Source: an uncultured Bacteroidota bacterium (lineage in GTDB: Bacteria; Bacteroidota; Bacteroidia; NS11-12g; UBA9320). From it: a stretch of DNA of 64,000 nt. Position 1 is the stretch's first letter. Each line of letters starts with the position of its first letter. Positions 27,328 through 47,582 of the stretch are shown here, one piece after another. A model generated the notes under the pieces. The model saw only the letters and a list, made by a program, of their open reading frames with translations, searched no databases and was not told the DNA's origin. Both the position numbers and the translations under genes were made by a program. The stretch is taken from the NCBI GenBank assembly GCA_937124965.1, contig CAKZLB010000005.1:62001-126000 (forward strand). Reading direction: 5' to 3'.

Positions 27328-28191
27328 TTACTCCGGTATGTATTCAAAGTTTCGAATAATGACTTCCTGTTCTTTGTTATCTGAAGGACCAGCTCCCGAC
27401 CAAGTAGTAACCCATAAGTTTATACGCGCATTGGTTTCTGAACCTGGAGCAGGAATAACAACAGGAACAGACTTGTTTCCTCCTTCTTCTTTCACCCTAC
27501 CAGGAAAGCTTTTGTCAAACTCCCACTCACCAAGAACTTCACCTGAACCATACGTGTCTCCGGCATAACTTACCCATGAAATCTTTTCTTCCGTCCATGT
27601 AAAAGCGTGTGTTGTTACGCCTTTCATTTTGCCTAAGTCATACTCAGGTCTATACATTCGTTCTTCGTACAACGTACCAAAATTAATAGGCTGAACACCA
27701 TATTGAAGCGTCCAGGGGTCATTTTTATTTCCCCACTTACTTATTTCAATATCGACCTCAGAATTTGCATCTGTTTTAAACGTATTATTATCCCAGGTAA
27801 ATAACCCCAATACAATATTCTCAGGAATGTCTTCAAGGTTGCCTTCTATGGTAAAGATATACGTTCCGTAACCCATTGCCTTATCAGTTACAACTTCTGT
27901 ACTGTACCATTTGTCACCTCGATTAACAATCTTCATATGTAAAAAACCATTACTGTCGATTGTGATGTCATTCTCATTTCCAGAAAAGAAATTTGGCCCT
28001 GGTCCCCACATTTGATTTTCATGTACTTTTACAGTCCAATCTAATCCAGCAAATCGAATGCTATCTCCTACTCTACCTGACGTTTCAGTATTTACTGATG
28101 ATACCGAAGGAGGATCACCAATTTTACATCCATTAATTAAAAAAAATACACAAATTGAAGCCGCAACCGCCGTTATGTTTTTTACGTTCAT
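27328..28191 (-). CDS. GH16-like surface lipoprotein (concanavalin-type beta-glucan hydrolase or binder)
   Basis: A lipoprotein signal ends LINGC. The ~260-residue mature domain has the lectin/glucanase fold pattern: WTVKVHENQMWGPGPNFF, MGYGTYIFTIEG and SEVDIEISKWG. The last has the E-x-D-x-E spacing of GH16 catalytic strands (lichenase type). Its overall match to GH16 is weaker than that of the enzyme at 39579, so it may be an endo-glucanase or a binding protein. It is the last gene of the minus-strand operon and abuts the CBM9 lipoprotein gene. Confidence 0.65.
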   Translation of the reverse strand: MNVKNITAVAASICVFFLINGCKIGDPPSVSSVNTETSGRVGDSIRFAGLDWTVKVHENQMWGPGPNFFSGNENDITIDSNGFLHMKIVNRGDKWYSTEVVTDKAMGYGTYIFTIEGNLEDIPENIVLGLFTWDNNTFKTDANSEVDIEISKWGNKNDPWTLQYGVQPINFGTLYEERMYRPEYDLGKMKGVTTHAFTWTEEKISWVSYAGDTYGSGEVLGEWEFDKSFPGRVKEEGGNKSVPVVIPAPGSETNARINLWVTTWSGAGPSDNKEQEVIIRNFEYIPE

Positions 28192-29418
28192 TTATTCCGT
28201 TTCGATAAAATTAATAATTCCCCAGGTTGCTGGTTTTTTACCAAACTCAGGGCTTTTACTATTCCATATAAATTGTTCGTCGCGTTTTGCATTGGTTCCT
28301 TTGTTAACTGCCACTTCGAGGTTGTAGTTTGTATTCGATTTTAAATCACCAACCTCAAAATATGAATACGGTATCACCGCTTCGAATGAGTATCCACTAC
28401 CCGATTTTACAGTAACTATCTTTACTCCTGCAACGTCGATTTTTTTGTGTTTGCGCCAATCCCAAATAAATGGTTCTGCTCCCATAACCAAACAAAAATG
28501 TTGATCTGAAAAAAGCATGGCTTTCCTTTTAAGAAAAGCCTCTGGATTCGTACTAATACCAATTTCAACACCATCTCCATTCCATACCTCATCCCCAGTT
28601 TTGCTATTTTGCAATGGCGTTTCATCCATTACTTTTCCTCCAATGTATAGGAAATCAGCATTTCCTTGGACCTGGATAGCATCAGTTGTGGTCATAATTA
28701 ATGGAACATTCTGCCATTCACTAGCTTCAAGATTTCCATCAATATTTATCGATTCGTTTGACGTATATACAGATTCCACGTTTTTAGTTTCAATGCCTTT
28801 ATACGGAACAACTTTTAATTCATCAAATATCACATCGCCATCAGCTTCAAACTGAATAATAAATTGTTTCACATTACTCAAATCTGCCCCAAACTGATCC
28901 CAACCAAAGTCTTCTATTGGAAGTGTAATAGTAGACCATGAATCACCTGGTTTTGTGGTAATGTATTTGGAATCAAATCCAATCCAAGCAGACTTCCCTC
29001 CATAGTCTTCAAACGATGCTGCCAACGGAAGCGACTTAATTGGGTTACCGCCATTGTATGCTTTAATTTGGACAGCTGCTTTATTAATAACCATACTAAA
29101 GTCTTTAGATGCCCAACCATCCCAGCCAATTCCCATACCAATCCAATCGCAACCACCTTCTTGCTTATTCCATTTTAGATGAATTGCTCCATCACCTGAA
29201 TAAACAGCTTTGGTTGTATTTTCAACTTCAATACATTTTACATTTTCAGTAAACCAAACCTCAGAGTTTAAGTTATCTTTTAGGATATTGATCGCGTAAA
29301 AATCCTCAATATGTTCTGGTTCGGGATTCGGTGAAACTTCGTCAAAAAGTGCCGATGGCTGAAGAGCCATACAACCTGATATCAAAAAGCTAATTCCTAC
29401 TAAATAGAGTAACTTCAT
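28192..29418 (-). CDS. Surface lipoprotein with jelly-roll and CBM9-type carbohydrate-binding domains
   Basis: The ATG at 29418 gives a lipoprotein signal (MKLLYLVGISFLISGC). Residues ~25-225 form a galactose-binding-like/CBM11-like jelly roll (SGDGAIHLKWN, SFEDYGGKSAWIGFD, DVIFDELKVVPY). Residues ~235-408 form a CBM9-like module (SINIDGNLEASEWQNVP, DEVWNGDGVEIGI, GYSFEAVIPYSYFEV). No catalytic motif was seen. In this operon it is best read as a surface glycan-binding protein that holds beta-glucan near the outer-membrane barrels, taking a SusD/SusE-like job without homology to them. Confidence 0.75.
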   Translation of the reverse strand: MKLLYLVGISFLISGCMALQPSALFDEVSPNPEPEHIEDFYAINILKDNLNSEVWFTENVKCIEVENTTKAVYSGDGAIHLKWNKQEGGCDWIGMGIGWDGWASKDFSMVINKAAVQIKAYNGGNPIKSLPLAASFEDYGGKSAWIGFDSKYITTKPGDSWSTITLPIEDFGWDQFGADLSNVKQFIIQFEADGDVIFDELKVVPYKGIETKNVESVYTSNESINIDGNLEASEWQNVPLIMTTTDAIQVQGNADFLYIGGKVMDETPLQNSKTGDEVWNGDGVEIGISTNPEAFLKRKAMLFSDQHFCLVMGAEPFIWDWRKHKKIDVAGVKIVTVKSGSGYSFEAVIPYSYFEVGDLKSNTNYNLEVAVNKGTNAKRDEQFIWNSKSPEFGKKPATWGIINFIETE

Positions 29419-29420
29419 GA

Positions 29421-30449
29421 TTATAATTTTAGAGGTCCATCCGTTGTAAATATCATGTAATCCATTAACGTTTGCGAATACCCTGTAGCTGGGTTTGCTA
29501 AAAATAAGCACGAAACCATATTCAATTTATCTGGATTATGTTGGTTGTTCCCTTTTGGTGTAGTTGGTTGCCCGTTCTCTAATGCTACTAGGTCGGAATA
29601 CTTCACAGAAACAATTTGCCACCCTTCTTCCAAATCGGTGAGTTCAACTGCATATTGATCTTCGTTGGCTTCAGTAAAGGTTCCGTCGCCGTTTTCATCT
29701 TCACTAAATCTGAATAACACAATGCCATTTGTAATTCCTTCGGGTCGATATAATGCGACATTAAAATATATATTATCAGGGTTACTTGGCAACTCAAACC
29801 CATTTGGACCGACAGACGTACCTGGAAAATCAACCAAACCGATAAGGTAATCCCAATCGACAGCACCACCCATATCAAAGTAATTATCACCTTGAGGCAC
29901 TACCTCTGTGTTTCCAATAGTGAACGTCATGTTTGCTCCACTCTGTGCAAAAACGGTCCAATCTGGATTAATACCATTTTCAAAATCAGCAACTACAACA
30001 CCAGAAGGTGTCCGCAAGCCACTAACAGTAACCTTTGTTGTTTGAATTGAGCTATCCGCTTCAGTCCAAAGTTCAGCAGTACAACTTCCTATTCCAAACG
30101 TAGGGAACAATGTTGTTGTTCCGTCCCAACTTGCAGTTTCTTCATCTAAAATGTTTGAGCGACCTTCGATAATTTTTATCGCATCCGAATTATCGCTTGA
30201 TATTGTTATTCTCCATGAAGTTATGGTTGAAAATCTTGCTTTGAAGTGCATTGACTCTTGAGAAGAAAAATCAACTGTTTCTTGATTTGCTTCAAAATCT
30301 TGTAAAACCGTAAAGTCTCCATATAAGTCATTTAAACTTGGACCTTCTGCCTCTGTATTTCTCTCGCAGCCAACTAAAAATGAGGATGCAACCAATACAA
30401 TGATGCCTAAGGCAATCGAAATATTTTTATTCATTAATACTCTTTTCAT
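29421..30449 (-). CDS. Surface lipoprotein, probable glycan-binding protein
   Basis: The protein is ~342 aa from the ATG at 30449 (another ATG lies at 30434; a TTG further up is less likely). The lipoprotein signal ends FLVGC. Two beta domains follow: residues ~35-140 are Ig/PKD-like (VTVSGLRTPSG at the edge), and residues ~145-340 are a jelly roll beginning VVVADFENGINPDW and ending with DYMIF. It resembles surface glycan-binding proteins of polysaccharide loci in layout, but no named family was recognised. It lies between the second barrel gene and the CBM9 lipoprotein gene, with gaps of a few bases. Confidence 0.6.
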   Translation of the reverse strand: MKRVLMNKNISIALGIIVLVASSFLVGCERNTEAEGPSLNDLYGDFTVLQDFEANQETVDFSSQESMHFKARFSTITSWRITISSDNSDAIKIIEGRSNILDEETASWDGTTTLFPTFGIGSCTAELWTEADSSIQTTKVTVSGLRTPSGVVVADFENGINPDWTVFAQSGANMTFTIGNTEVVPQGDNYFDMGGAVDWDYLIGLVDFPGTSVGPNGFELPSNPDNIYFNVALYRPEGITNGIVLFRFSEDENGDGTFTEANEDQYAVELTDLEEGWQIVSVKYSDLVALENGQPTTPKGNNQHNPDKLNMVSCLFLANPATGYSQTLMDYMIFTTDGPLKL

Positions 30450-30460
30450 TTTCAATATTT

Positions 30461-32173
30461 TTAAAAGTGCATACTATAAACAATACCAAACTGATTCAGA
30501 TCAAATTTTGATAATGCTTCATCTGCTGAATCTTCAAAGCTTATTTGTTGCCAAACCACATTAATATGGTTTTTAGCATCAAACTTATAACGAAGGGCAA
30601 TCAGTAATTGGTTTTGCTTCATATCTGTGGTAAACGGTTGAAAGTCGATTATCTCACCACTTGTTTCACGTACGTTCATTAACTCATTTCCCTGAGCATT
30701 GATGATTCGATAGTTTCCAAGGATTGCAAAATCTTTTGAAACTCCAATCTTTAACCCTACATCTAATAACAATGATTTTAAATCAATGTTTCCCTGTGGA
30801 ATCGTTGTCGATCTTTCTGTTTGTTGATTTGTTAAACCAAAACTCAGCTCTAATTCATTTTTATAGGAAGGTATTAATGTATCGATATATAATGTTCCGT
30901 TTGCATTCAATACCGAAAACGATCTTAACTCATCGCTGCCTTGGCCAACAATTTCACTCAACATTCTGTACGTCGCTTCGATATCAAATACTTTCTTTTT
31001 TGACATATATCCGGCTGTTACAGAAATTCCTTGTCTGTTAGGTGTTGCTTTTCCGTATGGCTGCACATTGTCATATTGAGGAGCAAATGTTTGCAGTGTA
31101 GTTGATAATTGAGATTGGTACAATGAAGCATCCTGTAACATATCAAGTTGAGTCACTGGTCTTGGAACTTGTTCGTTTCCATATCGTGTATACATTAAGT
31201 TTTGGGTTCCAAAATCTATGCGTCGACTTTGTGCGCCAACACTTCTGAATTGTGGACCTACATTTATATAATTAAGTTTTAAAGCTGGCAGATTTTTTTT
31301 ACTGCTTAACTCCAAATTCAAATCATAAAAGTAGTCACGCAACACGGAAACTGATGGATCGTTCAAGGTATATCGTTCAGAAATACCACTTTCAGAATTA
31401 AATCCAAGTTCAAATTTCTTTATGTCAAATCTAAAGTCTGTAGTTCCTGTTATAACCGGATTATGAAAAGCAGTATTCGAGCGCGACGTTCCTTTAATGT
31501 CCATCATGTCGACATAGTTAAGCCCTACATTGACTTTCTTACTTTGTACTAAGGTCGCATTACCTCCAAAGAAGATGCGTTCGCTTTGTTGACCAAAATC
31601 TGTCGGTCTATTCCTGAACATGAATGAGTTTACCTCAATTTCCTCAATAAATTTTGAAAACTCCAGTGTAAAGTCAACCGATGCACCTTGCTGACGCCAT
31701 GTATTATCGTCTGTATAAAACATGTCGTACCGCATTATATCTCGATAAATATTTAGAGCTTCTGATTGATGCTGACTTAGTTCTTCTTGGTTATTGAAAA
31801 AGGTATAAGGTGTCAAACGGTAGTTGATATCACCAAGTTGGTATCGGACGGCATTTTTCACTAAACCTTTTAAGTAAAGTTGTCGCATATCGAACGTCAC
31901 ACCTGAACCCCAAAAACCGCCAAAGTCGTTTCGAACCCGAACCATAGCATGAAGAAATGTTTGATCATTTGGTCTAGCGTTAATAGCGATGTCGACTAAA
32001 GCATGACCACTATTCAACTGTTTAGGCGTAACCGTATCTCCATCTGTTTTTAAATTGTTTTGTTGGAAAACACTTCGTGCGGCTCCTGATGCCCACACTT
32101 TTTTATTTTGAGCGTTTGCAGTAAAACTGATTACTGAAAGTGCTCCTATTATTAGGTAATTCTTTAAACTCAT
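30461..32173 (-). CDS. Predicted outer-membrane beta-barrel protein of the glucan locus (second barrel)
   Basis: The 570-aa protein has a signal peptide (cleavage near FTANAQ). Alternating strands fill the mature region (HALVDIAINARPND, VTFDMRQLYLKGLVKNAVRYQLGDINYRLTPY, LLIALRYKFDAKNHINVVWQQISF), and it ends in a Phe (FGIVYSMHF), the usual outer-membrane signature. No TonB box or plug domain is visible, so it is not a SusC. The start overlaps the stop of the first barrel gene (TAATG), implying coupled translation. A partner role in passing oligosaccharides, or in anchoring the lipoproteins, is inferred from position. Confidence 0.65.
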   Translation of the reverse strand: MSLKNYLIIGALSVISFTANAQNKKVWASGAARSVFQQNNLKTDGDTVTPKQLNSGHALVDIAINARPNDQTFLHAMVRVRNDFGGFWGSGVTFDMRQLYLKGLVKNAVRYQLGDINYRLTPYTFFNNQEELSQHQSEALNIYRDIMRYDMFYTDDNTWRQQGASVDFTLEFSKFIEEIEVNSFMFRNRPTDFGQQSERIFFGGNATLVQSKKVNVGLNYVDMMDIKGTSRSNTAFHNPVITGTTDFRFDIKKFELGFNSESGISERYTLNDPSVSVLRDYFYDLNLELSSKKNLPALKLNYINVGPQFRSVGAQSRRIDFGTQNLMYTRYGNEQVPRPVTQLDMLQDASLYQSQLSTTLQTFAPQYDNVQPYGKATPNRQGISVTAGYMSKKKVFDIEATYRMLSEIVGQGSDELRSFSVLNANGTLYIDTLIPSYKNELELSFGLTNQQTERSTTIPQGNIDLKSLLLDVGLKIGVSKDFAILGNYRIINAQGNELMNVRETSGEIIDFQPFTTDMKQNQLLIALRYKFDAKNHINVVWQQISFEDSADEALSKFDLNQFGIVYSMHF

Positions 32174-34194
32174 TAGAAAGATAATTTAAGTTCTACAACT
32201 GTTTCTGTTCCACTAAAGGCATCTTTAGAAAAACTACGATCTTCATAACTGAACCATCGATGTCTTATAAAAAGTGCTGTATTTTTTGATAAATCGTAAT
32301 CGATACCGAGGCCTATTCCGTAACCTTCTTGGTCTCTGGGTCTTAGACTAACTTGATCGACATCCGTTTGATAATTTGCAAGTATTCTTTCATATCCGAG
32401 GTATGATGCAAACACGCATCGCTCTGTGAACTCATAGTACATTTCAACTTCGTTTGTATAATGTCTTAAGAATGCTTTGTCCGAAAAAACAGTTACGGCG
32501 GATGTAAAATCTTGAACTGAGGAATACCGATTCAACATAAACGCATAAAAACGCTTTAAGCCGATTCTACCTTCGTATTTGGCTTGAACTTCAATTACGT
32601 TAAAATCCTTTGCAACAAACGAATCTTTTAACTCTACAACTTCATAAACGTCTCTAAAGATTACGTTGTATCGACCATAAGCTCCAACGTCTGTTGGAAA
32701 ATTCCAACGCCAGAATCTAGATCGCGTTAGTTGGTTAACTGGGTGACCGTAACTAATTCTATTGCTAATACCTTCAAGTTCTTTTGAAATTCCGTTTGCA
32801 ACGGAAAGCTTTAATTTCTTAAAAGGAATATCTGCGTTAATGTTAATTCCTTGTCTATTATTTGTGAATTGACCAATACCAGTCAATGAACTAGCAAATG
32901 GTGCGAGTACCGCACTACTTCCGACACTTCCAGCTGCTAAATTATTATTACTCGCTTCGCGAATTGCAGAATTCCAGAATATCGCATTGTTATTAATTAC
33001 GTTTGGACTTACGCGGAAATAATGAAATTCAATTGGGTATTTAATAATCTTTTCGTTGAAGTTTATCTTTACATTAATTGCTTCACCCCATGGTAAATCG
33101 TGTATTGGGCTGTAATAATGACCAGCACCAATTTCAGATTTTAAGACTATTCCTTTTCCTAAATTCGCTTGAAACTGTGTAGTTGTGATATCAAAACCAA
33201 TACTCTCTGTGTTTAAGCTATCTGAGTACGTTTGATTGTGAAATGTGTTTACTGCAATAAAACCCCATTTCATATCACGTTTTAGTTGACCTCCATACGA
33301 TAGATTAGGAATAGTAAGGAAACCACCGTTTAATTCTGTTTTACCATAAAGCGCTTTTAAGCTTAGTTTGCCTGGTAATTGCGTTGCTTCAACGACAGTT
33401 CCTGTGAATGCACGCTCGCCCCATCGAGTATCTTGATTAATATTACCCTGTGAATAAAAGCTTTTGTATCGATCAGATGTTTTTCCTCCGACAGGATCCC
33501 ATGGATTGCGTTCAAATAAAATAAATCGATTGTAACCTGTAAAAGCAGAAAGCGTAAAATCACTCAATGAAACCCAGTGTATTCCACCCGTTTTCACATT
33601 AAATGCACCAAAATCTGTTTTAAAACTACCGTATAAATTAATCCCTAAGAGTAATCCAAGGTTTGAACCAAATCGTTCTCCTGTTAACGGACTATAAACC
33701 GTTGGCTGCTGCGATTGACTGATCTGACCATTCCCATATGTAGGTCCAATTTGACCGTCTAAAAACTGAAATGCATACAAGTCAAAGCCCCAAGAAGTTC
33801 GTTCAGATGGTCTTCCAGAGAAATTTAAGGTTAGGTTTGGCAACTGAGCGTCGTCACCAATAAATACTTGTTTCGATAATGCTGTATCGTTCGTTGCTTC
33901 ATTCAAAATCAACGCTTCCTTTTGAACGGTATACGTTGAAAAGAATCGATAATTCCCCTTTACTTTAAACGTGTACAAAGCGTCGTCTGCTTTTTTAGGA
34001 AAAACACCGACATTATTTCTAGGAGTTTGAATATCAGGTTGATAATCAAGGGGAGGTGGGATGTGAATTTCGGGTCGAGTTATTACTCTTGCTGTAGTGT
34101 CACTTTTGTTCCCTTCCCCATTCACTTGAGCACTTACCGGACCGAAGCAGGCCGAGAATGCACAAAGTATGGATATGTAATAACGTTTCTTCAT
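32173..34194 (-). CDS. Predicted outer-membrane beta-barrel protein of the glucan locus (first barrel)
   Basis: The 673-aa protein has a signal peptide (cleavage near GPVSAQ), a Pro-rich leader (HIPPPLDYQPDIQTP), then strand-rich sequence with aromatic girdles (TSWGFDLYAFQFLDG, KTGGIHWVSLSDFTLSAF, KRFYAFMLNRYSS, YGIGLGIDYDLSKNTALFIRHRWFSY) and a terminal Phe (VVELKLSF). No plug domain, TonB box or SusC signature was seen. The start overlaps the symporter stop by the ATGA arrangement and the stop overlaps the next barrel start, so symporter and both barrels are tightly coupled. This is the best candidate for the oligosaccharide channel of a SusC-free system. Confidence 0.65.
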   Translation of the reverse strand: MKKRYYISILCAFSACFGPVSAQVNGEGNKSDTTARVITRPEIHIPPPLDYQPDIQTPRNNVGVFPKKADDALYTFKVKGNYRFFSTYTVQKEALILNEATNDTALSKQVFIGDDAQLPNLTLNFSGRPSERTSWGFDLYAFQFLDGQIGPTYGNGQISQSQQPTVYSPLTGERFGSNLGLLLGINLYGSFKTDFGAFNVKTGGIHWVSLSDFTLSAFTGYNRFILFERNPWDPVGGKTSDRYKSFYSQGNINQDTRWGERAFTGTVVEATQLPGKLSLKALYGKTELNGGFLTIPNLSYGGQLKRDMKWGFIAVNTFHNQTYSDSLNTESIGFDITTTQFQANLGKGIVLKSEIGAGHYYSPIHDLPWGEAINVKINFNEKIIKYPIEFHYFRVSPNVINNNAIFWNSAIREASNNNLAAGSVGSSAVLAPFASSLTGIGQFTNNRQGININADIPFKKLKLSVANGISKELEGISNRISYGHPVNQLTRSRFWRWNFPTDVGAYGRYNVIFRDVYEVVELKDSFVAKDFNVIEVQAKYEGRIGLKRFYAFMLNRYSSVQDFTSAVTVFSDKAFLRHYTNEVEMYYEFTERCVFASYLGYERILANYQTDVDQVSLRPRDQEGYGIGLGIDYDLSKNTALFIRHRWFSYEDRSFSKDAFSGTETVVELKLSF

Positions 34195-35828
34195 TTAAAT
34201 ACGTACCATAGGGTTAAAACTGAAAAAATTAATAATATGGTTAAGACTAAATTGATTTTAGATTTTTGAATATTTACACTTCCTCGGCTATAGGTGATTA
34301 AATCGATATCCGAACCAGTAGGAGCTTCTTTTGGGTTTGAGGCAACACGAAGAACAATGGAACAAACCACAAATAGAAAAAATGCAAAGTGCAAGAAATT
34401 AATTTCTGTAAACGCAAGTAGTGGCCCAGACAAATGATCTTGACCAATCTCAAGAGCCAGACGCGAAACGCCAATAACTGCTCCAGTTAACAAGGTAATT
34501 TTCGCTGCTTTCGCAGTAATCTTTTTGCTTAAAATTCCAAACAAGAAAACTGCTGCAATTGGAGGTGCAATATATGCTTGGATACTTTGTAATTTTTGAA
34601 ACAAACCTCCTTTGATAACTTGCATTAATGGAATCCAAGCAAGTCCAAGCACAACAAGAATAACTGTCACAATTTGACCAACATACACTAAACGTTTCTG
34701 CGATGCTTCAGGATTTATTTTCTGATAAATATCCATAGTAAACAATGTCGAACACGAATTAAATACAGAAGACAATGAACTCATTAAAGCGGCTAAAAGT
34801 CCTGCGATTACTAGACCTTTAAAGCCACTTGGCAAAACTGCTAAACTCAGAAGAGGAAGAGCTGCGTCATAATCTACATCTCCATTAGTTTTTAATGGAA
34901 ATTCTATTATTGCACCATCACCCGTTGAAAGTGCCAAGGCAATTACACCTGGAATTACAAATAGAAATAACGGTAATAATTTAAGGAATCCACCAAAAAT
35001 GGTTCCCTTACGTGCGTGATCTAAATTTTTTGCTGCAAGAACTCGTTGAACGATAAATTGGTCTGTACACCAATACCAAACTCCTAAGATTGGAGCTCCT
35101 AAAAGTATTCCGGTCCACGGAAAATCTTTATCATTCATATCTCTCCACAAGCTCAATGAACCTTCAGGTGCTTTTTGGGTTAAACCTTCCCATCCGTTTA
35201 ATGCTTCTAAACCGTAATACGTTAGCGCAATTGACCCGCCGATTAAGACAATCATTTGTAGAAAATCCGTATACACTACGACTTTCAAGCCACCAATTAC
35301 CGTATAGATGCCAGTAAATAGAACAATTAAAATTGCGCCGGTCCAAAAATCAATGCCTAATAGAGCCGTGAAAACAATGCCTCCTGCAGCAATAGTTACC
35401 GAAATTTTGGTCATTACATAAGCAGCAATAGAAATCCAACTGAGGTAGTTTCTTGCCCACGTGTTATATCTACGCTCAAGAAATTCTGGCATGGTAAAGA
35501 CGCCACTTTTCATGTAAAATGGAACAAAGAACCATCCTAACAAAAGCAACATTAACGCTGCCAAAATCTCCATGTGACCAGCTGCAAAGTCTCCTTTAGC
35601 GCCGGCACCAGCCAATCCTATTAAATGTTCTGAGCCAATATTTGATGCAAACAAGGACGCACCAACAACCCACCAACCTAAATTTCGTCCACCTAAAAAA
35701 TACGATTCAGCACCTCGTGACTTTGCGCGTCTTTTACGTTGAATGTAAAAAAACAAGGCAATACCAAAAACTGCTAGGAAGTATATTCCTATTACAGTTA
35801 AATCGAGTGCTGACAGTTTAGCGAACAT
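34191..35828 (-). CDS. SLC5-type sodium/solute symporter (SGLT-like)
   Basis: The 545-aa membrane protein has a sodium:solute symporter core: SYFLGGRNLGWWVVGASLFASNIGSEHLIGLAGAGAKGDFA matches the SGLT N-terminal signature, with W(F/Y)WCTDQFIVQRVLAAKN further on and ~14 hydrophobic segments. The family imports sugars with Na+, consistent with a marine-type setting. Relatives in Bacteroidota sugar loci carry glucose or other monosaccharides; here the intracellular phosphorylase implies that some transporter admits oligosaccharides. The start shares one base with the stop of the upstream glucanase gene (TAATG). Confidence 0.93.
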   Translation of the reverse strand: MFAKLSALDLTVIGIYFLAVFGIALFFYIQRKRRAKSRGAESYFLGGRNLGWWVVGASLFASNIGSEHLIGLAGAGAKGDFAAGHMEILAALMLLLLGWFFVPFYMKSGVFTMPEFLERRYNTWARNYLSWISIAAYVMTKISVTIAAGGIVFTALLGIDFWTGAILIVLFTGIYTVIGGLKVVVYTDFLQMIVLIGGSIALTYYGLEALNGWEGLTQKAPEGSLSLWRDMNDKDFPWTGILLGAPILGVWYWCTDQFIVQRVLAAKNLDHARKGTIFGGFLKLLPLFLFVIPGVIALALSTGDGAIIEFPLKTNGDVDYDAALPLLSLAVLPSGFKGLVIAGLLAALMSSLSSVFNSCSTLFTMDIYQKINPEASQKRLVYVGQIVTVILVVLGLAWIPLMQVIKGGLFQKLQSIQAYIAPPIAAVFLFGILSKKITAKAAKITLLTGAVIGVSRLALEIGQDHLSGPLLAFTEINFLHFAFFLFVVCSIVLRVASNPKEAPTGSDIDLITYSRGSVNIQKSKINLVLTILLIFSVLTLWYVFK

Positions 35829-37171: not shown

Positions 37172-37880
37172 TGTTTTTAAGTTCGTCATACCGTTTTTTA
37201 TCAAAGTTGAAAAGCTTAGCTGGTCTGTGAGCAACATTTGTTTCTACCTCGTTTAAAGGCGTAATTACATTCATGCTCAATATTTTTTTTCTAAAATTGG
37301 GTTTATCAAAACGTTCGCTTAGTAGTGCTTCATAAACGCCTTGCAATTCAAGAAGGGTGAATTTCTCTGGCAACAATTCAAAGCCAACAGGTTCTGTTCG
37401 AACCTTCTTGCGCAAATTCAATATTGCCTTATTAATAATTTCTGAATGGTCGAAGGCAAGTTTTGGCAAATCTTCTATATCAAACCACTTAACATTCTTC
37501 GCCCACATGGATGCTACAGGCTGGTAGTTTTCACTTCGCACTAAAGAATAATACCCTATTGTAATTACCCGTCCGACAGGATGTCGATCAACGCTACCAA
37601 AGGCATGAAACTGTTCGAAATAAATATTTTTCAAACCTGTAAGGTGCGTTAAGATTCTGTTTGCAGAGTTGTTTAAATCTTCATCTGGATAGACTAAATC
37701 TCCTGGAATTGCCCATGAATCTTTGAATGGTTCCGCTCCCCGCTGAATGAGTAAGACCCTCAAGGATCCACTATGATAACCAAAGATTACACAATCAACA
37801 GAAAGTCCAAAATGAAGAAAATCTGCGAATGGTAAATTATTTTCTGATAAAAAGTACCGATCTGGATTATTTTGTCCCAT
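37149..37880 (-). CDS. Nudix-domain transcriptional regulator (NrtR/AraR-like) of the glucan locus
   Basis: Residues ~20-150 form a Nudix fold: LSVDCVIFGYHSGSLRVLLIQRG, WAIPGDLVYPDEDL. The Nudix box is degenerate, with NRILTHLTG where active hydrolases have REVxEE, so the catalytic glutamates are lost and the domain should serve as a ligand sensor. Residues ~165-243 are the winged-helix DNA-binding region typical of this family (FTLLELQGVYEALLSERFDKPNFRKKIL...HRPAKLF). Bacteroidota use such proteins as sugar-responsive regulators. It leads the minus-strand operon, and a 23-bp palindrome lies directly upstream, suggesting autoregulation. Its ligand is probably a glucan breakdown product or glucose-1-phosphate (inference). 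Confidence 0.88.
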   Translation of the reverse strand: MGQNNPDRYFLSENNLPFADFLHFGLSVDCVIFGYHSGSLRVLLIQRGAEPFKDSWAIPGDLVYPDEDLNNSANRILTHLTGLKNIYFEQFHAFGSVDRHPVGRVITIGYYSLVRSENYQPVASMWAKNVKWFDIEDLPKLAFDHSEIINKAILNLRKKVRTEPVGFELLPEKFTLLELQGVYEALLSERFDKPNFRKKILSMNVITPLNEVETNVAHRPAKLFNFDKKRYDELKNNEITFEL

Positions 37881-37918: not shown

Positions 37919-37941
37919 CTTATAGTACTTTTTACTTTAAG
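37919..37941. promoter_or_regulatory. Operator-like 23-bp palindrome between the divergent glucan operons
   Basis: The structure is CTTATAGTA - N5 - TACTTTAAG: 9-bp arms matching at 8 of 9 positions. It lies between the Nudix regulator start (37880) and the MFS porter start (37997) and can control both. A close relative occurs at 47417-47439, where one arm is identical (CTTATAGTA). Confidence 0.65.
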
Positions 37942-39565: not shown

Positions 39566-39578
39566 AAAATCCTCCTCG

Positions 39579-40832
39579 ATGAATATTACGAATAAAATAA
39601 AGGCACAACTTCGGTTGTGTCTTATGTTGTTTATACCCTTCCTCGTTGGGTGTAAACTTGAACCTACAACGACTGACATTAACACTGGCACACTGCTAGA
39701 AGCTGAAGATTATAAGTTTGCTGTCGACTCAGTATTAAAATCTAAACAAGGAATAACTATCCCAAAAGATGGTGTTGCTGAATATCTTATATCAATTCCA
39801 ATAACTGGAAGGTATACGATTGATGTTGTCGGAAGTTCAGATTCTGGCAGTATTTGGATTGAGGACTATATCTTTAATCAAGACGATCGCACGTACAATA
39901 TCACCGGAAACATTTCCATGGCAAATTCTAAAAAGTCTGATATCAGTACTGTTGATGGTTCGCCAATGGCTAAGGGTGAGCATTCTATTCGAATTCATGT
40001 GGTTAATGACGATGTCTTTATTGACAAGTTAACTTTTAAACCTTTATTGATTCACGATTCTGTAACGACAGTTCTAAAGCAAGAAATGAGCGGCAACGAA
40101 TGGTCACTTGTGTGGTCTGATGAATTTGATCAGGGATCAGTCCCCGATTCTACAAAATGGTCGTACAACCTTGGTAATTGGGGTTGGGGGAATAACGAAC
40201 TTCAATATTATACGAATCAACCAGAAAACGCTAGAATTGAAAACGGACAATTAATAATTAAAGCCATTAAAAATAATCACAATGAAAAGTGGACCTCTGC
40301 CAGACTAACTACTCAAGGGCAAGTTGCGTTGCAATATGGCAAGATTGAATTTAGAGCAAAAGTTCCTTATGGACGCGGAACGTGGTCAGCAGGGTGGTTG
40401 TTAGGCGAATCATATCAAGATGAGTTATCTTGGCCTTACTGTGGTGAGATTGATATTTTGGAGTGCGTTGGTTACGAAATTAACGACACGACTAAAAATG
40501 GCTTAAACCATGCAACCTGTCATACCCGAGCATACTATTTCAAACAAGGGAACCAAATAGGCAGCGATACAACATTGGAGGACATGACTAATACCTTTCA
40601 CACCTACAGCGTCGAATGGTATCCTGACGTTATTTATGGTTTGGTTGATGGAGTTCGTTACTACACCTACGATAAGAATACTAATGAACTAGAGTGGCCA
40701 TTTAATAATCCTCAAAATATTATATTAAACTTAGCTATTGGTGGCGGTTGGGGTGGTGCAAAAGGTATCGACCCACAGTTTAACGAACATGAATTTATTA
40801 TTGATTATGTTAGAGTTTATCAAAAAAAATAA
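39579..40832 (+). CDS. GH16 laminarinase (endo-beta-1,3-glucanase) lipoprotein with N-terminal CBM6-like module
   Basis: A lipoprotein signal ends FLVGC (Cys25). Residues ~40-160 form a CBM6-like jelly roll (LLEAEDYKFAVDS...FIDKLTF). Residues ~172-417 are GH16 with WSDEFDQGSVPDSTKWSYNLG, GNNELQYYTNQPENARIENGQ, GKIEFRAKVPYGRGTWSAGW and the catalytic ExDxxE: Glu290, Asp292, Glu295 in GEIDILE. This beta-bulge form is that of laminarinases, so beta-1,3-glucan is the expected substrate, cut at the cell surface or in the periplasm. The next gene starts inside its last 26 bp. Confidence 0.93.
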   Translation: MNITNKIKAQLRLCLMLFIPFLVGCKLEPTTTDINTGTLLEAEDYKFAVDSVLKSKQGITIPKDGVAEYLISIPITGRYTIDVVGSSDSGSIWIEDYIFNQDDRTYNITGNISMANSKKSDISTVDGSPMAKGEHSIRIHVVNDDVFIDKLTFKPLLIHDSVTTVLKQEMSGNEWSLVWSDEFDQGSVPDSTKWSYNLGNWGWGNNELQYYTNQPENARIENGQLIIKAIKNNHNEKWTSARLTTQGQVALQYGKIEFRAKVPYGRGTWSAGWLLGESYQDELSWPYCGEIDILECVGYEINDTTKNGLNHATCHTRAYYFKQGNQIGSDTTLEDMTNTFHTYSVEWYPDVIYGLVDGVRYYTYDKNTNELEWPFNNPQNIILNLAIGGGWGGAKGIDPQFNEHEFIIDYVRVYQKK

Positions 40833-42327
40833 CAGAAGCCTTTGGCTACTTGGCTTATTATTCTTGATGGTAACTGCATGTAAACAAACGCAAGACAACA
40901 CTGCGGCGTCTAACGTAAAAGTTTACCAAACTGCTTCGAACGGAGACAAGTTAAAAGAAGTAGGTTTAAGCAACGACGACCAGCCGGCAACGATTACCAT
41001 TTCAATCAATGCTGAAGAGCTGCATCAGACGATAACTGGCTTTGGTGGTGCCTTCACTGAGTCTAGCGCATACTTATATCATAAACTTGGATCAGACAAT
41101 AAACAAAAACTGTTAGACGCATATTTTAGTGATTCAGGCGCTAATTATAGCTTGATGAGAACACATATGAATAGTTGTGATTTTTCAATTGACCACTATT
41201 CGTATGCTCCAGTTGCTAATGATACATTCTTGGATTCGTTCTCTATTCAAGAAGATGTAATGGATTTAATCCCATTAATCAAAGACGCTCAAAAAACGTC
41301 TACAAATGGATTTAAAATAATTGCTTCTCCATGGACTGCACCACCATGGATGAAAGACAACAATGATTGGTATGGGGGAAAATTGCTTGAAGAATTTTAT
41401 CCAACTTGGGCTAATTTCTTTGTTAAATACACCAAAGAGTATCAAAAACTTGGAATACCAATTTGGGCATTCACAGTAGAAAATGAACCTCTTGGAAATA
41501 ATGCTAATTGGGAAAGCATGCATTATTCACCAGAAGAAATGGTGGACTTTGTAAAAAATCATTTGAGCCCAACACTCCAACAAAATGAGATCAACGGACG
41601 ATTGCTCATGTATGATCAAAATCGAGGTAAAGAGTTAAACGAATGGACAGATGTTTATCTTAAAGACACTGCACTACTTTCAATGATTTACGGGACGGCA
41701 GTACATTGGTATAATTCGACGTATGATTGGTATCCAGAGTCGTTGGAAGAAACACACAATAAAGCACCAAACAAACACATAATCGAAACCGAGGGCTGCA
41801 TTGATGCAGAAGTTCCACACTGGAATGACGACGCTTGGTATTGGTCGAAAGAGGCAACTGATTGGGGTTGGGATTGGGCATCTGAAGAAGATAAAAAATA
41901 CCACCCTAAATATGTTCCAACGTTTCGTTATGCTCGTGACATTATTGGCTGCTTAAACTCACATGTTGAAGGCTGGGTAGATTGGAATATTCTGTTGGAT
42001 GAAAAAGGCGGACCAAACTTAGCACAAAATTGGTGCATCGCTCCTGTCCTTGCAAACGTTGAAAAAGACGAATTGTATTTTACTCCTTTGTATTATGTGC
42101 TTTCACATTTTAGCAAGTTTATTCGTCCGGAAGCGAAGCGTATTTCCATTGAAACGAGTAACGACAAGCTGATGGCAACAGCAGTAAAAAACAATGATGG
42201 TTCTATTGCTGTACAGGTATTAAACACGTCAGATACACCAGTTGTCTTTGAACTTAACGGCATAAACGTTACCACAAAAATTACCATCGCAAAACAAGCA
42301 ATTCAAACGGTACTAATTACACAATAA
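40807..42327 (+). CDS. GH30 family beta-glucosidase/beta-1,6-glucanase lipoprotein
   Basis: The ATG at 40807 overlaps the GH16 gene by 26 bp and yields a lipoprotein signal ending VTAC (Cys25). GH30 motifs are complete: ITGFGGAFTESSAYL, RTHMNSCDFSIDHYSY, ASPWTAPPWMK, TVENEPL (acid/base Glu227) and HIIETEGC (nucleophile Glu329, or Glu327 if aligned differently). HVEGWVDWNILLDEKGGPN and a C-terminal beta domain follow. In a laminarin locus the likely tasks are removal of beta-1,6 branches (GH30_3) or exo-action on beta-1,3 chains (GH30_1); the subfamily cannot be fixed by eye. Confidence 0.92.
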   Translation: MLEFIKKNNRSLWLLGLLFLMVTACKQTQDNTAASNVKVYQTASNGDKLKEVGLSNDDQPATITISINAEELHQTITGFGGAFTESSAYLYHKLGSDNKQKLLDAYFSDSGANYSLMRTHMNSCDFSIDHYSYAPVANDTFLDSFSIQEDVMDLIPLIKDAQKTSTNGFKIIASPWTAPPWMKDNNDWYGGKLLEEFYPTWANFFVKYTKEYQKLGIPIWAFTVENEPLGNNANWESMHYSPEEMVDFVKNHLSPTLQQNEINGRLLMYDQNRGKELNEWTDVYLKDTALLSMIYGTAVHWYNSTYDWYPESLEETHNKAPNKHIIETEGCIDAEVPHWNDDAWYWSKEATDWGWDWASEEDKKYHPKYVPTFRYARDIIGCLNSHVEGWVDWNILLDEKGGPNLAQNWCIAPVLANVEKDELYFTPLYYVLSHFSKFIRPEAKRISIETSNDKLMATAVKNNDGSIAVQVLNTSDTPVVFELNGINVTTKITIAKQAIQTVLITQ

Positions 42328-42363: not shown

Positions 42364-45300
42364 ATGACACAAAAAGCGCAAGAAAATACAGGACACTACG
42401 TAAAGATTGATGGTGAATCCTTTTATAAAATAGAAAATGTAGAAACCATGCGTCCGTTTTTTATGACGTTGGTTAGCCCATCAGACCATTGGTTATTTAT
42501 AGCAAGTAACGGTGGACTTACAGCAGGTAGAAAGAACCCAGAGTCGTCTTTGTTTCCATATTACACAGACGATAAAATTATTGATTTTGCCGAAGTAACG
42601 GGAAGTAAGTCAATCGTTAAGTTAAATCACGACGGAAAAACAACCAATTGGGAACCGTTCTCAAATCGCGACCTTCAGCATCGTAGCTTTCGTCGAAATC
42701 TTTATAAAAACACTACGGGCAATAAACTCATTTTTGAGGAAGTACAAAGCGATTACAAGCTTACTTTTAGGTATATGTGGTCTTTCTCGGAAAAATTTGG
42801 GTTTGTAAAGCGATCAGAAATAATAAACGATGGAGAGCAAGAGGTTAACATCGAAATTTTAGATGGATTGCAAAACATCTTACCTTCTGGAGTTAACAGT
42901 GACCTCCAAAGTGGTAGAAGTACGTTGGTGGATGCTTATAAGAAAAGTGAGTTGGATGCCTCTACTGGGCTTGGTATTATATCGTTAAGTTCAATGATCG
43001 TAGACCGCGCGGAACCAAGCGAAGCACTCAAGGCGACAAGCGTTTGGACAACTGGTCAAAAAGTAAAAACTACCCTCCTATCTACATTGCAATTAGACGC
43101 ATATAGACGCGGGGAAGTTATACATACAGAGATTGACGTTCGTGCGGAAAAAGGCGCTTACCTGGCTGAATTCTCGTTTATTCTTAAACCAAGTTTATCA
43201 GAAAACTGGCTAATAGTTTCAGAGGTTAATCAGGATCACTCCAACCTTATTTATCTTCAAGAAGAATTAACGAATAATGAAGATCAGCTATATTGGGATG
43301 TTCTAGAAGATTTGGAACGGGGTACACGTGATTTACGATTATTGGTAGGAACTGCCGACGGTATTCAAAAGTCGAATGATGCGCTGAGCGCCAATCGTCA
43401 CTTTTCAAATGTTTTGTTTAATATCATGCGTGGAGGTATTTTTTGCGATGACTATTCAGTTGACGTAAAAGATTTCTTAAACCATTTGAAGATCATGAAC
43501 GTAGATGTATGGTCTACCTATGTTTCGATGATTGATTCTGTTGGAGAAAACATAACGTATTCTGATTTAATCAAGCTGGCAAAAACCACCAATAACTCAG
43601 ATTTCACAAGGTTATGCTATGAGTATTTGCCGCTGTTTTTTAGTCGTAGGCATGGAGACCCAAGCAGACCTTGGAATTATTTTTCAATCGAAACTACTGA
43701 CGAATCTGATAATAAGATCTTAAACTTTGAGGGTAATTGGAGAGACATTTTTCAGAACTGGGAAGCTCTTGGTTTATCCTTTCCTCTGTTTATTGAATCG
43801 TTTATAGCAAAATTTGTAAATGCCTCGACCATAGATGGTTATAACCCATATCGTATTTCGCGCAGCGGTATTGATTGGGAAGTTGAAGAAGAACATGACC
43901 CTTGGTCGTATATTGGGTATTGGGGAGATCATCAAATAATCTATTTGCTTAAACTATTGGAATTATCTAAAAAGCACCATCCAGCAGTTTTAAATGAATT
44001 ACTCAACAAGGCGGACTACGTTTATGCAAATGTGCCTTATCGCATTAAATCCTTCGCAGATATTAAAAGAGACCCTCAAAATACTGTCGTATTTGATGCA
44101 GGCTTAGATACACAAATTCGGAAAAAAGCTGAAGTTTTTGGAGCGGATGCAAAATTGTGCTTTACTGATAAAAATGGTCTGTTACGAGCAACTTTAGCAG
44201 AAAAAATATTAGTCACAGTTTGTACAAAATTGTACAACTTCGTTCCTTCAGCAGGTATTTGGTTAAATACACAAAGACCAGAGTGGAATGATGCCAACAA
44301 TGCTTTAGTTGGCAACGGAGTGTCCATGGTAACAGTTTATTATTTGCGACGTTTTCTTGCATTTGGTATAGACTTATTTGAGGAAAACAGCGACGCAAAA
44401 ATGCCAATCAACAAGGCCGTGGGTGAACTTGTTGAAGCTTTAGCAAACGTTTTTGAAGAAAATATTGACGCTATTTCGAAAACCTTAAGCGATTCGGATA
44501 GAAATACATTTACCGAAAAACTTGGATTAATTGGTGAGTCATATCGTTCGAAAGCGTATGCTCAAGAATATTTTGTAAAAACGGAGATTTTTGTAAAACG
44601 TGTCATTGACTTATTTACAGTTGCTCTGAAAGCGTTAGACACTACAATCGCAAACAACAAACGCGAGGATGGTTTATACCATGCCTACAACCTGATTGAA
44701 TTCAAAGAAGACAACCTTGAAATAGAACATCTTTATGAAATGCTTGAAGGCCAAGTAGCTGCAATTAGTTCGGGGTATCTAAAACCAAGCGAATCATTAA
44801 AAGTGTTAGACGCACTCAAACGCAGTGCAATGTTTCGAGAAGATCAATACAGCTATTTATTGTATCCAAATAGGGAGTTACCAAGGTTCCTTGACAAGAA
44901 CATCATATCAAAAGATGTCATTGCTTCCTCCCCTCTTCTTAAAGCATTGGCTGAGCACAACGATAAATCATTGTTTGTCCGAGACATAAAAGGAGTGGGA
45001 CATTTCAACGGTACCATTAACAACGCAGACGATGTAGAAGAAAAGTTAGCTGTGTTAGAAGAGATTCCAGTATTTCAGGATTTAGTCAAAAAAGAGCGCC
45101 ACTTTGTTTTGGATTTGTTTGAATCACTATTCAATCACAAGGCATTCACTGGAAGGTCAGGAACCTTTTATGGTTATGAAGGACTTGGGTCAATTTATTG
45201 GCATATGGTTTCAAAACTGCTACTTGCCGTTCAAGAAAATATATTGGCTGGATACGAACAGCAAATATCTAAAGAAGAGCTTGGACGTTTGATTAGTCAT

Positions 45301-45798
45301 TATTACGAAATACGAGCTGGCATTGGTGTTAATAAATCACCTGGATTGTATGGCGCTTTCCCAACAGACGCATATTCACATACGCCAGGGAATGCAGGAG
45401 CTCAGCAACCTGGAATGACAGGACAAGTGAAGGAAGATATCATTAGCAGATGGGCTGAGTTAGGCGTTATTGTTGAAAATGGTTCATTGAACTTTAAACC
45501 ATTGTTGTTGCGACAGTCTGAGTTCTATGAGCGAGATTATGAATTTGTATTCTTTGATGTTTTGGATGAACGTCAAACCTTAGAATTGCCTTCAGGAAGC
45601 ATAGCCTTTACATATTGTCAAGTTCCAATTATATATACGTTGGCAGATCGACAACAAATAAGCATTTATTATAAATACAACCCAAACCCTAAAGTGATTG
45701 AAGGGCATACATTGAGCACTGAAGATTCTGCATCAGTTTTTGGCCGAAATGGTGCGATTGAGCGAATAGAATTCGATTGTGTACCGCTATTGAATTAA
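42364..45798 (+). CDS. Cytoplasmic beta-1,3-oligoglucan phosphorylase candidate (GH149/GH161/GH94-like, clan GH-Q)
   Basis: The 1144-aa protein has no signal peptide. The N-terminal ~300 residues are a beta-sandwich (RPFFMTLVSPSDHWLFIASNGGLTAGR). The centre and C-terminal half are an (alpha/alpha)6-barrel-like region with NTQRPEWNDANNALVGNGVSM, where Asp643 matches the catalytic Asp of clan GH-Q phosphorylases. GYGxEG-type segments and PGLYGAFPTDAYSHTPGNAGAQQPGMTGQVKED also fit. The length suits GH149 (about 1100 aa), a family shown to phosphorolyse beta-1,3-glucans; GH161 is similar in size. It should split imported oligosaccharides with phosphate to glucose-1-phosphate. It closes the plus-strand operon and is followed by a terminator. 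Confidence 0.8.
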   Translation: MTQKAQENTGHYVKIDGESFYKIENVETMRPFFMTLVSPSDHWLFIASNGGLTAGRKNPESSLFPYYTDDKIIDFAEVTGSKSIVKLNHDGKTTNWEPFSNRDLQHRSFRRNLYKNTTGNKLIFEEVQSDYKLTFRYMWSFSEKFGFVKRSEIINDGEQEVNIEILDGLQNILPSGVNSDLQSGRSTLVDAYKKSELDASTGLGIISLSSMIVDRAEPSEALKATSVWTTGQKVKTTLLSTLQLDAYRRGEVIHTEIDVRAEKGAYLAEFSFILKPSLSENWLIVSEVNQDHSNLIYLQEELTNNEDQLYWDVLEDLERGTRDLRLLVGTADGIQKSNDALSANRHFSNVLFNIMRGGIFCDDYSVDVKDFLNHLKIMNVDVWSTYVSMIDSVGENITYSDLIKLAKTTNNSDFTRLCYEYLPLFFSRRHGDPSRPWNYFSIETTDESDNKILNFEGNWRDIFQNWEALGLSFPLFIESFIAKFVNASTIDGYNPYRISRSGIDWEVEEEHDPWSYIGYWGDHQIIYLLKLLELSKKHHPAVLNELLNKADYVYANVPYRIKSFADIKRDPQNTVVFDAGLDTQIRKKAEVFGADAKLCFTDKNGLLRATLAEKILVTVCTKLYNFVPSAGIWLNTQRPEWNDANNALVGNGVSMVTVYYLRRFLAFGIDLFEENSDAKMPINKAVGELVEALANVFEENIDAISKTLSDSDRNTFTEKLGLIGESYRSKAYAQEYFVKTEIFVKRVIDLFTVALKALDTTIANNKREDGLYHAYNLIEFKEDNLEIEHLYEMLEGQVAAISSGYLKPSESLKVLDALKRSAMFREDQYSYLLYPNRELPRFLDKNIISKDVIASSPLLKALAEHNDKSLFVRDIKGVGHFNGTINNADDVEEKLAVLEEIPVFQDLVKKERHFVLDLFESLFNHKAFTGRSGTFYGYEGLGSIYWHMVSKLLLAVQENILAGYEQQISKEELGRLISHYYEIRAGIGVNKSPGLYGAFPTDAYSHTPGNAGAQQPGMTGQVKEDIISRWAELGVIVENGSLNFKPLLLRQSEFYERDYEFVFFDVLDERQTLELPSGSIAFTYCQVPIIYTLADRQQISIYYKYNPNPKVIEGHTLSTEDSASVFGRNGAIERIEFDCVPLLN

Positions 45799-45861: not shown

Positions 45862-45924
45862 CATTTAATAAAACCTGATTAGTTTGGTGAAAAGGTTGCA
45901 CTACTTTACAAAGCCCATTTACAC

Positions 45925-45961: not shown

Positions 45962-45990
45962 CTAAAAAAAAGTTAAACTATATTAAGTTC

Positions 45991-47337
45991 TTATTCTTTG
46001 ATGGTTCTGAAACTATAGTTGTTTCCTTCAACCTCAATAATGAATGTATAAACACCTGGTTTCAACGCTGTCATGTCAACCGCAACTGCATTTGAACCAC
46101 CAGCAACTTCCATTACTTGTTGTCCAACTGTTGAGTACACTTTTACGTTTGAAATATTTTGAATTGTATTGATGTTTACGATGTCTTTTGTTGGATTTGG
46201 ATAAACAGTAAGACCTTCTAACTCAGTATTAACAACATTTACCATAGAATTGTCGCCAAAACTTAAGTCGTCCCAGTAGTATGTTTTTTCACCAGCATCA
46301 GCACCTGTTACACCGAAGTTAAAAAACAATGACGCTTTTTTGTAATCAATTGTGTCGCTCCACTTTGGAGAGGTAGAAACAGGATTGTCGAAGTCAAACA
46401 CTAAGTATTCCCATTCGTTTGCTTTAGTTGTCTTCATGTCAGCTTCTACAAACAAGTTTCCTCTAGTAGCATCCTCAACTTTTAATCGCACAGTGATATC
46501 AGCATCTGGAGAGTACACCTTAACGGTCATTCTTTTTTCTGATGCAGTAAATGGAATAGGGTCTTTAAATCCAAATGGAGTACTTGCAGTAACTCCAGCC
46601 CACTCTGGACTAGACATTGGTTTAGTAGACATTGCAACTCTGTTCATTGCATCCTTAGGGTCATCTACAATTGTAGTAACCATGTCTCCAAAACTAGTAA
46701 CGGTTAAATCAACCATTGTGTCTTCGAATGTTACAGGAAGATTCATTTGCTCCTTTTTAGGACCAGCATTTAAACCACCGAACTTTACATCGTCCCAGTA
46801 GTAAACTTTACCTGTACCCTTAGAATCAAAATCGAAGAACATAGAACCTTTGTTGTAAGTTGCAGCTAAATCAAGAGTTGCTGTTCCTGCACGTTGTTTA
46901 GAAAAATCAAATTCTAACGTTTCCCACTCCCCTGCTTTTGTAGTCATTGCAATTGTCTCAACTGACTTACCTGCATTGTTCGAGTCTTCTACTTTGAAAT
47001 TCACAGGAATGTTTGCGTCTGGCGACCAAACTCTCACCGTCATTTTCGTTTCCGACACAGTGAATGGTAATTTAGTTTTAAAACTAACCACTTTAGCATC
47101 TACCTCGATTCCTATCGTTGTACCCGCCCAAGTTTCTGAATTGTCTCCTTTTGTAGTTTTAACTACTTTGTTTGATGCGTCAGTTGGGTCAGCAACAATC
47201 TCTGAACCATTACCACCAAAATCTACAACACCATACGTTACAGATGTCTCATCAAATGTAACTGGTAAATCGTATCCCTGCGAAAAGCCCATAAATGAAG
47301 CTAGTAGTAGGAATGAAAATGTAAAATTCTTAATCAT
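45991..47337 (-). CDS. T9SS-secreted protein with two repeated carbohydrate-binding-like domains
   Basis: A signal peptide (cleavage near MGFSQ) precedes two tandem homologous ~170-residue beta domains. Each starts LPVTFE/DE-T and ends YYWDDVKFG or YYWDDLSFG, with shared MTVRVWSPDANIPVNFKVEDS / MTVKVYSPDADITVRLKVEDA strands. A type A T9SS sorting domain (VYPNPTKDIVNI...TFIIEVEGNNYSFRTIKE) closes the protein. The domains look like jelly-roll carbohydrate-binding modules and no catalytic motif is present. A predicted -7 box overlapped by the glucan-locus palindrome lies upstream, so the protein is expected to be co-regulated with that locus and to bind glucan at the cell surface or outside. Confidence 0.8.
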   Translation of the reverse strand: MIKNFTFSFLLLASFMGFSQGYDLPVTFDETSVTYGVVDFGGNGSEIVADPTDASNKVVKTTKGDNSETWAGTTIGIEVDAKVVSFKTKLPFTVSETKMTVRVWSPDANIPVNFKVEDSNNAGKSVETIAMTTKAGEWETLEFDFSKQRAGTATLDLAATYNKGSMFFDFDSKGTGKVYYWDDVKFGGLNAGPKKEQMNLPVTFEDTMVDLTVTSFGDMVTTIVDDPKDAMNRVAMSTKPMSSPEWAGVTASTPFGFKDPIPFTASEKRMTVKVYSPDADITVRLKVEDATRGNLFVEADMKTTKANEWEYLVFDFDNPVSTSPKWSDTIDYKKASLFFNFGVTGADAGEKTYYWDDLSFGDNSMVNVVNTELEGLTVYPNPTKDIVNINTIQNISNVKVYSTVGQQVMEVAGGSNAVAVDMTALKPGVYTFIIEVEGNNYSFRTIKE

Positions 47338-47412
47338 AATTTTTTTTTAAAATTCTTTTTTGTCTAATCAATCTTTAGTCGGTATTCCGACTAATAACGG
47401 TACGAAATAAAG

Positions 47413-47420
47413 CAAACTTA
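47413..47420 (-). promoter_or_regulatory. Predicted -7 promoter element of the T9SS repeat-protein gene
   Basis: The minus strand reads TAAGTTTG (exact TAnnTTTG). Its first four bases are the end of the palindrome at 47417-47439, so a bound repressor would block the promoter. It lies ~75 bp upstream of the ATG at 47337. Confidence 0.55.
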
Positions 47421-47439
47421 AGGTAAATATTACTATAAG
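47417..47439. promoter_or_regulatory. Second copy of the glucan-locus operator-like palindrome
   Basis: The structure is CTTAAGGTA - N5 - TACTATAAG, with the same arm length and spacer as the copy at 37919-37941. The inverse of its right arm (CTTATAGTA) equals the left arm of that copy exactly. It overlaps the -7 element of the T9SS gene. Confidence 0.65.
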
Positions 47440-47582
47440 ATAAAAAAAATGTTACTTTTGGGTAATTATTTAAACATAACAACCTATTAAACAAGATATT
47501 AGAATTATGGTTAAATGTTATGTTAGAATGTTAAATAGAATTTAAAACAACAAATTAACGCCTAATTAACTATTGATTAGCG

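Follow-up and report, generated by a model that had tools for sequence, protein, structure and literature searches.

Among Bacteroidota, the SusCD pair is taken as the defining machine of glycan uptake across the outer membrane, and it is this pair that finders of polysaccharide utilization loci (PULs) look for. Glycoside hydrolase family GH149 of Bacteroidetes was described both in PULs and in clusters of carbohydrate-active enzymes (CAZymes) that lack susCD, accompanied by GH16/GH17, GH30_1/GH3 and transporters (PMC5827456; this and the other papers cited are represented here by excerpts). We analysed a 64-kb stretch of DNA (the window; positions 62001–126000 of contig C5 of genome G000), in which positions 27328–47337 carry a locus of this general kind. 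We interpret it, with somewhat more confidence than doubt, as a locus for beta-1,3-glucan (laminarin-like) in which SusCD is replaced by a module of outer-membrane barrels, which ends in cytoplasmic phosphorolysis and which is controlled by a Nudix regulator. The role of the standard uptake pump is probably taken over by two barrels together with their partner proteins. The original prediction, made from the DNA letters alone, had proposed a design free of SusCD, and the profile searches uphold this for the locus, although GH149 clusters lacking susCD were already in print (PMC5827456); what is new here is the gene set with its distribution, its occurrence in genomes lacking SusD, and a palindrome.

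The locus consists of two divergent, tightly packed gene rows, in agreement with the prediction, and the spacing suggests that each row is an operon. The leftward row, starting at 37880, encodes a Nudix regulator, GH158, a sodium:solute symporter (SSF), barrel2, barrel1, a lipoprotein (LP), a lipoprotein with a family 9 carbohydrate-binding module (CBM9) and a GH16-like lipoprotein; the rightward row, starting at 37997, encodes a major facilitator superfamily (MFS) sugar transporter, GH16, GH30 and GH149. A leftward gene at 45991–47337, whose product carries a type IX secretion system (T9SS) tail, adjoins the two rows.

Neither SusC nor SusD was found in the locus by profile searches, as had been predicted. 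Over the whole window genome, PF14322 and PF07980 gave 0 matches each (a Bacteroides control was positive in both), and the 13 matches to TIGR04056 (SusC) reached at best 103.9 bits, none above the cut-off of 368.25. Having neither a plug-bearing SusC nor a SusD-like lipoprotein, the locus falls outside SusCD-type PULs, and its co-located CAZymes and other transporters without susCD fit a CAZyme cluster lacking susCD.

The outer-membrane candidates are barrel1 (30461–32173, reverse strand) and barrel2 (32173–34194, reverse strand), members of two unnamed families. Neither protein reached a Pfam or NCBIfam family above its curated cut-off, nor did they match PF00593, PF07715 or TIGR04056; SusC/SusD identity, which according to the original prediction would have spoken against its proposal if seen in the 30461 or 32173 protein, was rejected, since no SusC/SusD profile matched. 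Weak matches by E-value occur among family members, to OMP_b-brl (4/55, best 2e-5, and 4/49, best 1.3e-4), DUF3575 (5/55) and DUF2490 (3/49), and profile searches of the PDB with the barrel, LP and GH16-like families returned nothing convincing. AlphaFold predicted a 22-strand barrel for barrel1 (predicted local distance difference test, pLDDT, 92.1; predicted template modelling score, pTM, 0.86), in which the stretch around residues 306–379, confidently predicted with little regular structure and holding the conserved FRSxGAQSxR and ATxNRxG motifs, could form a constriction. The model of barrel2 is less certain (pLDDT 76.4, pTM 0.74), with about 22–23 long strands. Neither barrel is predicted to have a plug: PF07715 gave no match and, in the models, the strands begin close to the N-terminus of the mature protein or follow a disordered segment. 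Comparison of the two family profiles gave a 27.7% probability of common origin. No specific known fold was singled out for either barrel, as many unrelated barrels tie, and a search of the open-licence literature for the barrel pair or a SusCD-independent outer-membrane glycan route found no paper on the barrels.

GTDB genomes were scanned with the barrel2 alignment, and the best 80 of the 204 relatives were kept for locus counts, the gene-order denominators being the loci whose contig leaves room. These 80 carry the names of Bacteroidota groups, Flavobacteriales being the most frequent, with a single exception labelled Euryarchaeota (L150). Barrel2 is followed by barrel1 in 77/78 loci, barrel1 by LP in 66/67 and LP by a CBM9-type gene in 64/64; GH158 lies at most three open reading frames (ORFs) upstream of barrel2 in 66/67. 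The exceptions L106 and L107 stem from long antisense ORFs chosen by the longest-ORF filter. Median gaps along barrel2-barrel1-LP-CBM9 are -1, 3 and -1 bases, and the same order is kept in the distant families f41, f43, f45 and f55. Such recurrence across distant genomes points to more than chance. An NrtR gene is present in 44 of the 80 module loci, and a GH16-like gene in 30. In the relative locus L172, Pfam shows GH30; barrel2 is also present in locus L071. Home-made, uncalibrated profiles scored SusD and a TonB receptor in 1/80 loci each, both borne out by Pfam, many of the loci being short.

Barrel2 was found in 6 of 395 Bacteroidota genomes, by sequence and by profile; five of these six also encode GH149, and in four genomes (G000, G340, G231 and G179) both genes lie on one contig within 15 kb. 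No PF14322 match was obtained in 8 of 17 module-bearing genomes (G000, G396, G398, G426, G427, G219, G231 and G340), which include three distant families, and barrel2 reads intact in seven of the eight. In two places barrel2 reads as several frames, G398:C9 (L085 and L180, with stops inside the matches) and G428:C35 (L084), which reflects either decay or assembly error. We hypothesized that barrel2-barrel1-LP-CBM9 is a self-contained uptake system without a TonB-dependent SusC or SusD, which carries beta-1,3-gluco-oligosaccharides and is the sole such route in species without SusCD; this narrower proposal is tentative, and we give it a little less than an even chance.

To see whether GH149 loci normally centre on SusCD, we scanned the 69 GH149 loci other than that of the window, reaching 8.2 kb to each side or as far as the contig extends, with home-made SusC, SusD and TonB-receptor profiles (8 seeds each). 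SusC or SusD was scored in 6/69 and a TonB receptor in 5/69, counts limited by the uncalibrated profiles and by too narrow a stretch; SusD lies within 20 kb of GH149 in at least 9 of the 69 genomes (G226, G304, G053, G103, G355, G296, G111, G123 and G104), and 55 have SusD somewhere and 14 none. No barrel was scored in these loci, as it lies beyond 8.2 kb in G340, G231 and G179 and on another contig in G219. As a side observation, 26 of the 69 encode a protein of about 1010–1080 amino acids (for example L181:14602–17769 and L188:13935–17078, both on the reverse strand) with an N-terminal GH2_C/GH158-like TIM barrel and a C-terminal half that looks like an outer-membrane barrel by eye and has no Pfam match. 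Here one gene may correspond to GH158 plus barrel, and its product is perhaps the unassigned 'GH0' beside GH149 in the excerpt of PMC10108472.

The enzymes point to beta-1,3-glucan. The 1144-residue product of 42364–45798 (forward strand) scored 1625.6 bits against the GH149 equivalog NF058639 (cut-off 1150), and its closest solved structure is Pro_7066 (6hq6), aligned over residues 11–1138. The WND catalytic loop and RD motif named for Pro_7066 (PMC6771811) are kept, with EWNDANNALVGNG and GNWRDIFQNWEAL aligning with 6hq6. Judged from its sequence, the product is a GH149 beta-1,3-glucan phosphorylase, which refines the GH-Q-type phosphorylase without signal peptide of the original prediction (the absence of a signal peptide was judged by eye). 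The predicted clan GH-A glucanase (35828–37165, reverse strand; mechanical ORF to 37237; signal peptide by eye) could likewise be narrowed to GH158 through the solved structures 9oro, named GH158(Pro) (2.5e-94), and 6pal (3e-63), the latter of which we take to be BuGH158. The match spans the whole domain, and the N-E and E positions named in PMC7157763 are kept. Pfam matches bear out the predicted GH16 enzyme (39579–40832, forward strand; a lipoprotein with an EIDILE motif; PF00722, 9.4e-21), GH30 enzyme (40807–42327, forward strand; a lipoprotein; mechanical ORF from 40738; PF02055, 5.3e-74), SLC5-type SSF (34191–35828, reverse strand; PF00474, 5.7e-85) and MFS transporter (37997–39565, forward strand; PF00083 (Sugar_tr), 8.9e-115), as well as the CBM9 protein and the Nudix regulator. 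The second, GH16-like lipoprotein (27328–28191, reverse strand) had no family match alone in Pfam or NCBIfam searches; PF00722 was reached by 3/22 members of its family (best 8.7e-4), and the ExDxE residues E145, D147 and E149 are invariant in 22/22. We regard it, from this alignment, as a remote GH16-like lipoprotein keeping ExDxE. For the ORFs at 28192, 35828 and 40738, translation probably begins further into the frame than the mechanical ORF indicates. One GH3 match was obtained in the window genome, a 976-residue frame on contig C39.

The GH158 and GH16 enzymes that have been characterised accept several beta-glucans (PMC7157763), and instead of laminarin the substrate might be a different glucan with beta-1,3 linkages (mixed-linkage, fungal or callose-like). 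We consider this unlikely, given that the two GH149 enzymes that have been characterised are both called beta-1,3-glucan phosphorylases (PMC5827456) and that GH16, GH30, MFS and GH149 co-occur in a laminarin locus (PMC13188888).

The NrtR/AraR-type Nudix regulator (37149–37880, reverse strand) matches PF00293 (42.8 bits) and then the NrtR winged helix PF21906 (87.5 bits), AraR_C (PF19368) matching too. Between the two gene rows we noticed an operator-like palindrome, CTTATAGTA-CTTTT-TACTTTAAG (37919–37941), with 8/9 arm positions complementary, which is identical in G396, G398 and G399. The pattern CTTAWAGTA-N5-TACTWTAAG, drawn from this site itself, finds one further copy in the window, upstream of the T9SS gene (47417–47439, 1 mismatch), against an overall expectation of 0.20 matches; two were seen in 1/100 shuffles. 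Over the whole genome, a slightly widened pattern with 2 mismatches gave 12 strand rows on 7 places, versus 2 control rows. Among these places, outside the window, are copies before a 265-residue T9SS-tail protein (L256:8229–9026, contig C76), which is 28% identical to the 45991 product across 145 residues, and before a T9SS protein with a legume-lectin domain (L255:8606–10681, contig C46), both possible further regulon members; the remaining three places are each at 2 mismatches. The core GTAN5TAC occurs upstream of 27/44 NrtR genes versus 114/737 other ORFs, a contrast inflated by kinship, and exact-palindrome scoring upstream of NrtR genes is weak, with at least 8/9 matched arms in 12/45 regions versus 12/225 simple shuffles, several of these 12 regions carrying other palindromes. 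Boxes of TAnnTTTG, a -7 element of Bacteroidota, overlap or adjoin both window palindromes on the leftward strand, with two more rightward in the second region, which would fit a repressor.

Regarding the partner proteins, LP (29421–30455, reverse strand) has a Cys25 that is invariant in the family alignment, and a crude lipobox-like pattern fits 58/65 LP proteins of the best 80 loci. PF03425 (CBM_11) was matched by 6/30 family members (best 1.8e-4) and not by the window LP, a putative surface glycan-binding protein. The CBM9 lipoprotein (28192–29418, reverse strand; PF06452, 1.5e-10) probably starts at the ATG at 29418, the mechanical ORF extending to 29511. The secreted T9SS-tail protein (45991–47337, reverse strand; PF18962, 4.8e-10), a putative member of the same regulon, has a CBM_4_9-like domain that scored 19.9 bits against PF02018, below the cut-off of 25.9. 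Directly beyond its gene lies a gene for a BadF/hexokinase-like kinase (47611–48471), with Pfam matches below cut-off, found in the same place in G396.

Gene identities and order, their conservation, the absence of SusD matches and the palindrome are features of the sequence itself, and upon them we infer localization, regulator binding and barrel transport with its direction and substrate size. In the proposed mechanism, the glucan would be cut by the GH16-type lipoproteins and GH158, presumably at the cell surface, while being held by LP, the CBM9 protein and the T9SS-secreted CBM protein. The barrels would then let oligosaccharides through the outer membrane, GH30 would remove side branches, and the SSF and MFS carriers would take the products across the inner membrane, where a cytoplasmic GH149 would phosphorolyse them to glucose 1-phosphate. 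By acting on CTTAWAGTA-N5-TACTWTAAG, the NrtR/AraR-type regulator would control the T9SS gene as well as the two gene rows.

Several observations weigh against this interpretation. Fold comparison of the barrels gave generic matches, with porins, ushers, TonB receptors and AlgE all at Z 13.0–16.6, so that import, export and a structural role are indistinguishable by fold. Alternatively, the barrels might carry no sugar but serve to export the partner proteins or further enzymes of the cell surface, or to display them, the sugar entering through other TonB-dependent receptors or porins: usher and exporter barrels are among the fold matches, the barrels are invariably followed by LP and the CBM9-type gene on contigs long enough to show them, and 15 PF00593 TonB-receptor matches elsewhere in the genome could import sugar. 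None of these receptors lies in the window, however, the genome is without a SusD match, and the module keeps company with GH158, frequently also with GH3 and a regulator of sugar type, which makes this alternative rather improbable in our view. GH3 occurs in 40/80 module loci (three of the assignments were checked by Pfam) and GH149 in only 3/80, within the fetched flanks. The module is patchy, since barrel2 is present in 12 of the 39 nearest relatives (window genome included) and missing from 27. The lipobox-like pattern fits only 27/65 CBM9-type proteins, so a second surface lipoprotein is not a general feature of the module. The palindrome, at up to 3 mismatches, is missing from 8/16 loci scanned, distant Bacteroidota included, and its statistics rest on one independent window site. 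Finally, the relatives are mostly metagenome-assembled genomes, often with short contigs and partly close kin, so that the counts are not independent.

A SusD match is moreover found somewhere in 9/17 module-bearing genomes and, in G399, of the same family, genes for SusC, SusD and a PKD/CBM11 lipoprotein follow shortly after GH149 and the T9SS-type gene of the syntenic locus, which indicates that both designs can coexist. A similar SusC-SusD-lipoprotein trio is encoded on a 7.7-kb contig of G395, G428, with its split barrel2, has SusD (Pfam) and a 969-residue, SusC-size ORF near GH158, and G404 (L174) holds a cluster of beta-glucan type (SusCD, two GH16, GH3, SSF and a related NrtR-type Nudix regulator) in which both the SusC-size gene and the NrtR gene are preceded by the palindrome. 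By gene content, some relatives hold both systems and the window species only the barrels; G396, like the window, is without the trio at the syntenic position. From the trios in G399 and G395 and the palindrome upstream of SusC in G404, one could read the barrels as an accessory system beside SusCD, the window species having lost the trio and using the glucan less well. The eight module genomes without PF14322 described above, from distant families too and nearly all with an intact barrel2, argue against this reading, the least probable of the alternatives considered. Replacement of SusCD by the barrel module remains our preferred interpretation, and the alternative design of the original prediction is retained in part: the lack of SusCD, the terminal phosphorylase, the beta-1,3-glucan enzymes and the two barrels as outer-membrane candidates stand, with passage through the barrels as a proposal, but the design coexists with SusCD in G399 and the module is found more often with GH3 than with GH149. 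If the interpretation is true, surveys based on SusCD overlook part of the turnover of beta-1,3-glucan. The two barrel families, the regulator and the candidate operator are each open to testing, for which a SusD-less genome provides a clean background.

Compared with known systems, the locus resembles the GH149 PULs and CAZyme clusters of PMC5827456, in the excerpts of which no outer-membrane barrel pair is named; the module, its spread, the regulator and the palindrome are described here. The Bacteroides uniformis 1,3-beta-glucan PUL (PMC7157763) likewise combines GH16, GH158 and a non-SusD surface glycan-binding protein and finishes with GH3, as do many relatives of the barrel module, but it has SusC, SusD and a hybrid two-component system (HTCS) regulator in place of two plugless barrels and a Nudix regulator. 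GH16, GH30 and GH149 are shared with the laminarin PULs of Formosa (PMC6246565) and Muricauda (PMC13188888), and MFS with the latter; the GH17 enzymes of both, and the TonB receptors and SusD near the Formosa PULs, set them apart from the window locus. The regulator resembles BtAraR of the NrtR family (PMC4666351), which also has a Nudix-like domain and a winged helix and whose AraR_C domain matches the window regulator; BtAraR controls arabinose genes, unlike the beta-glucan role proposed here.

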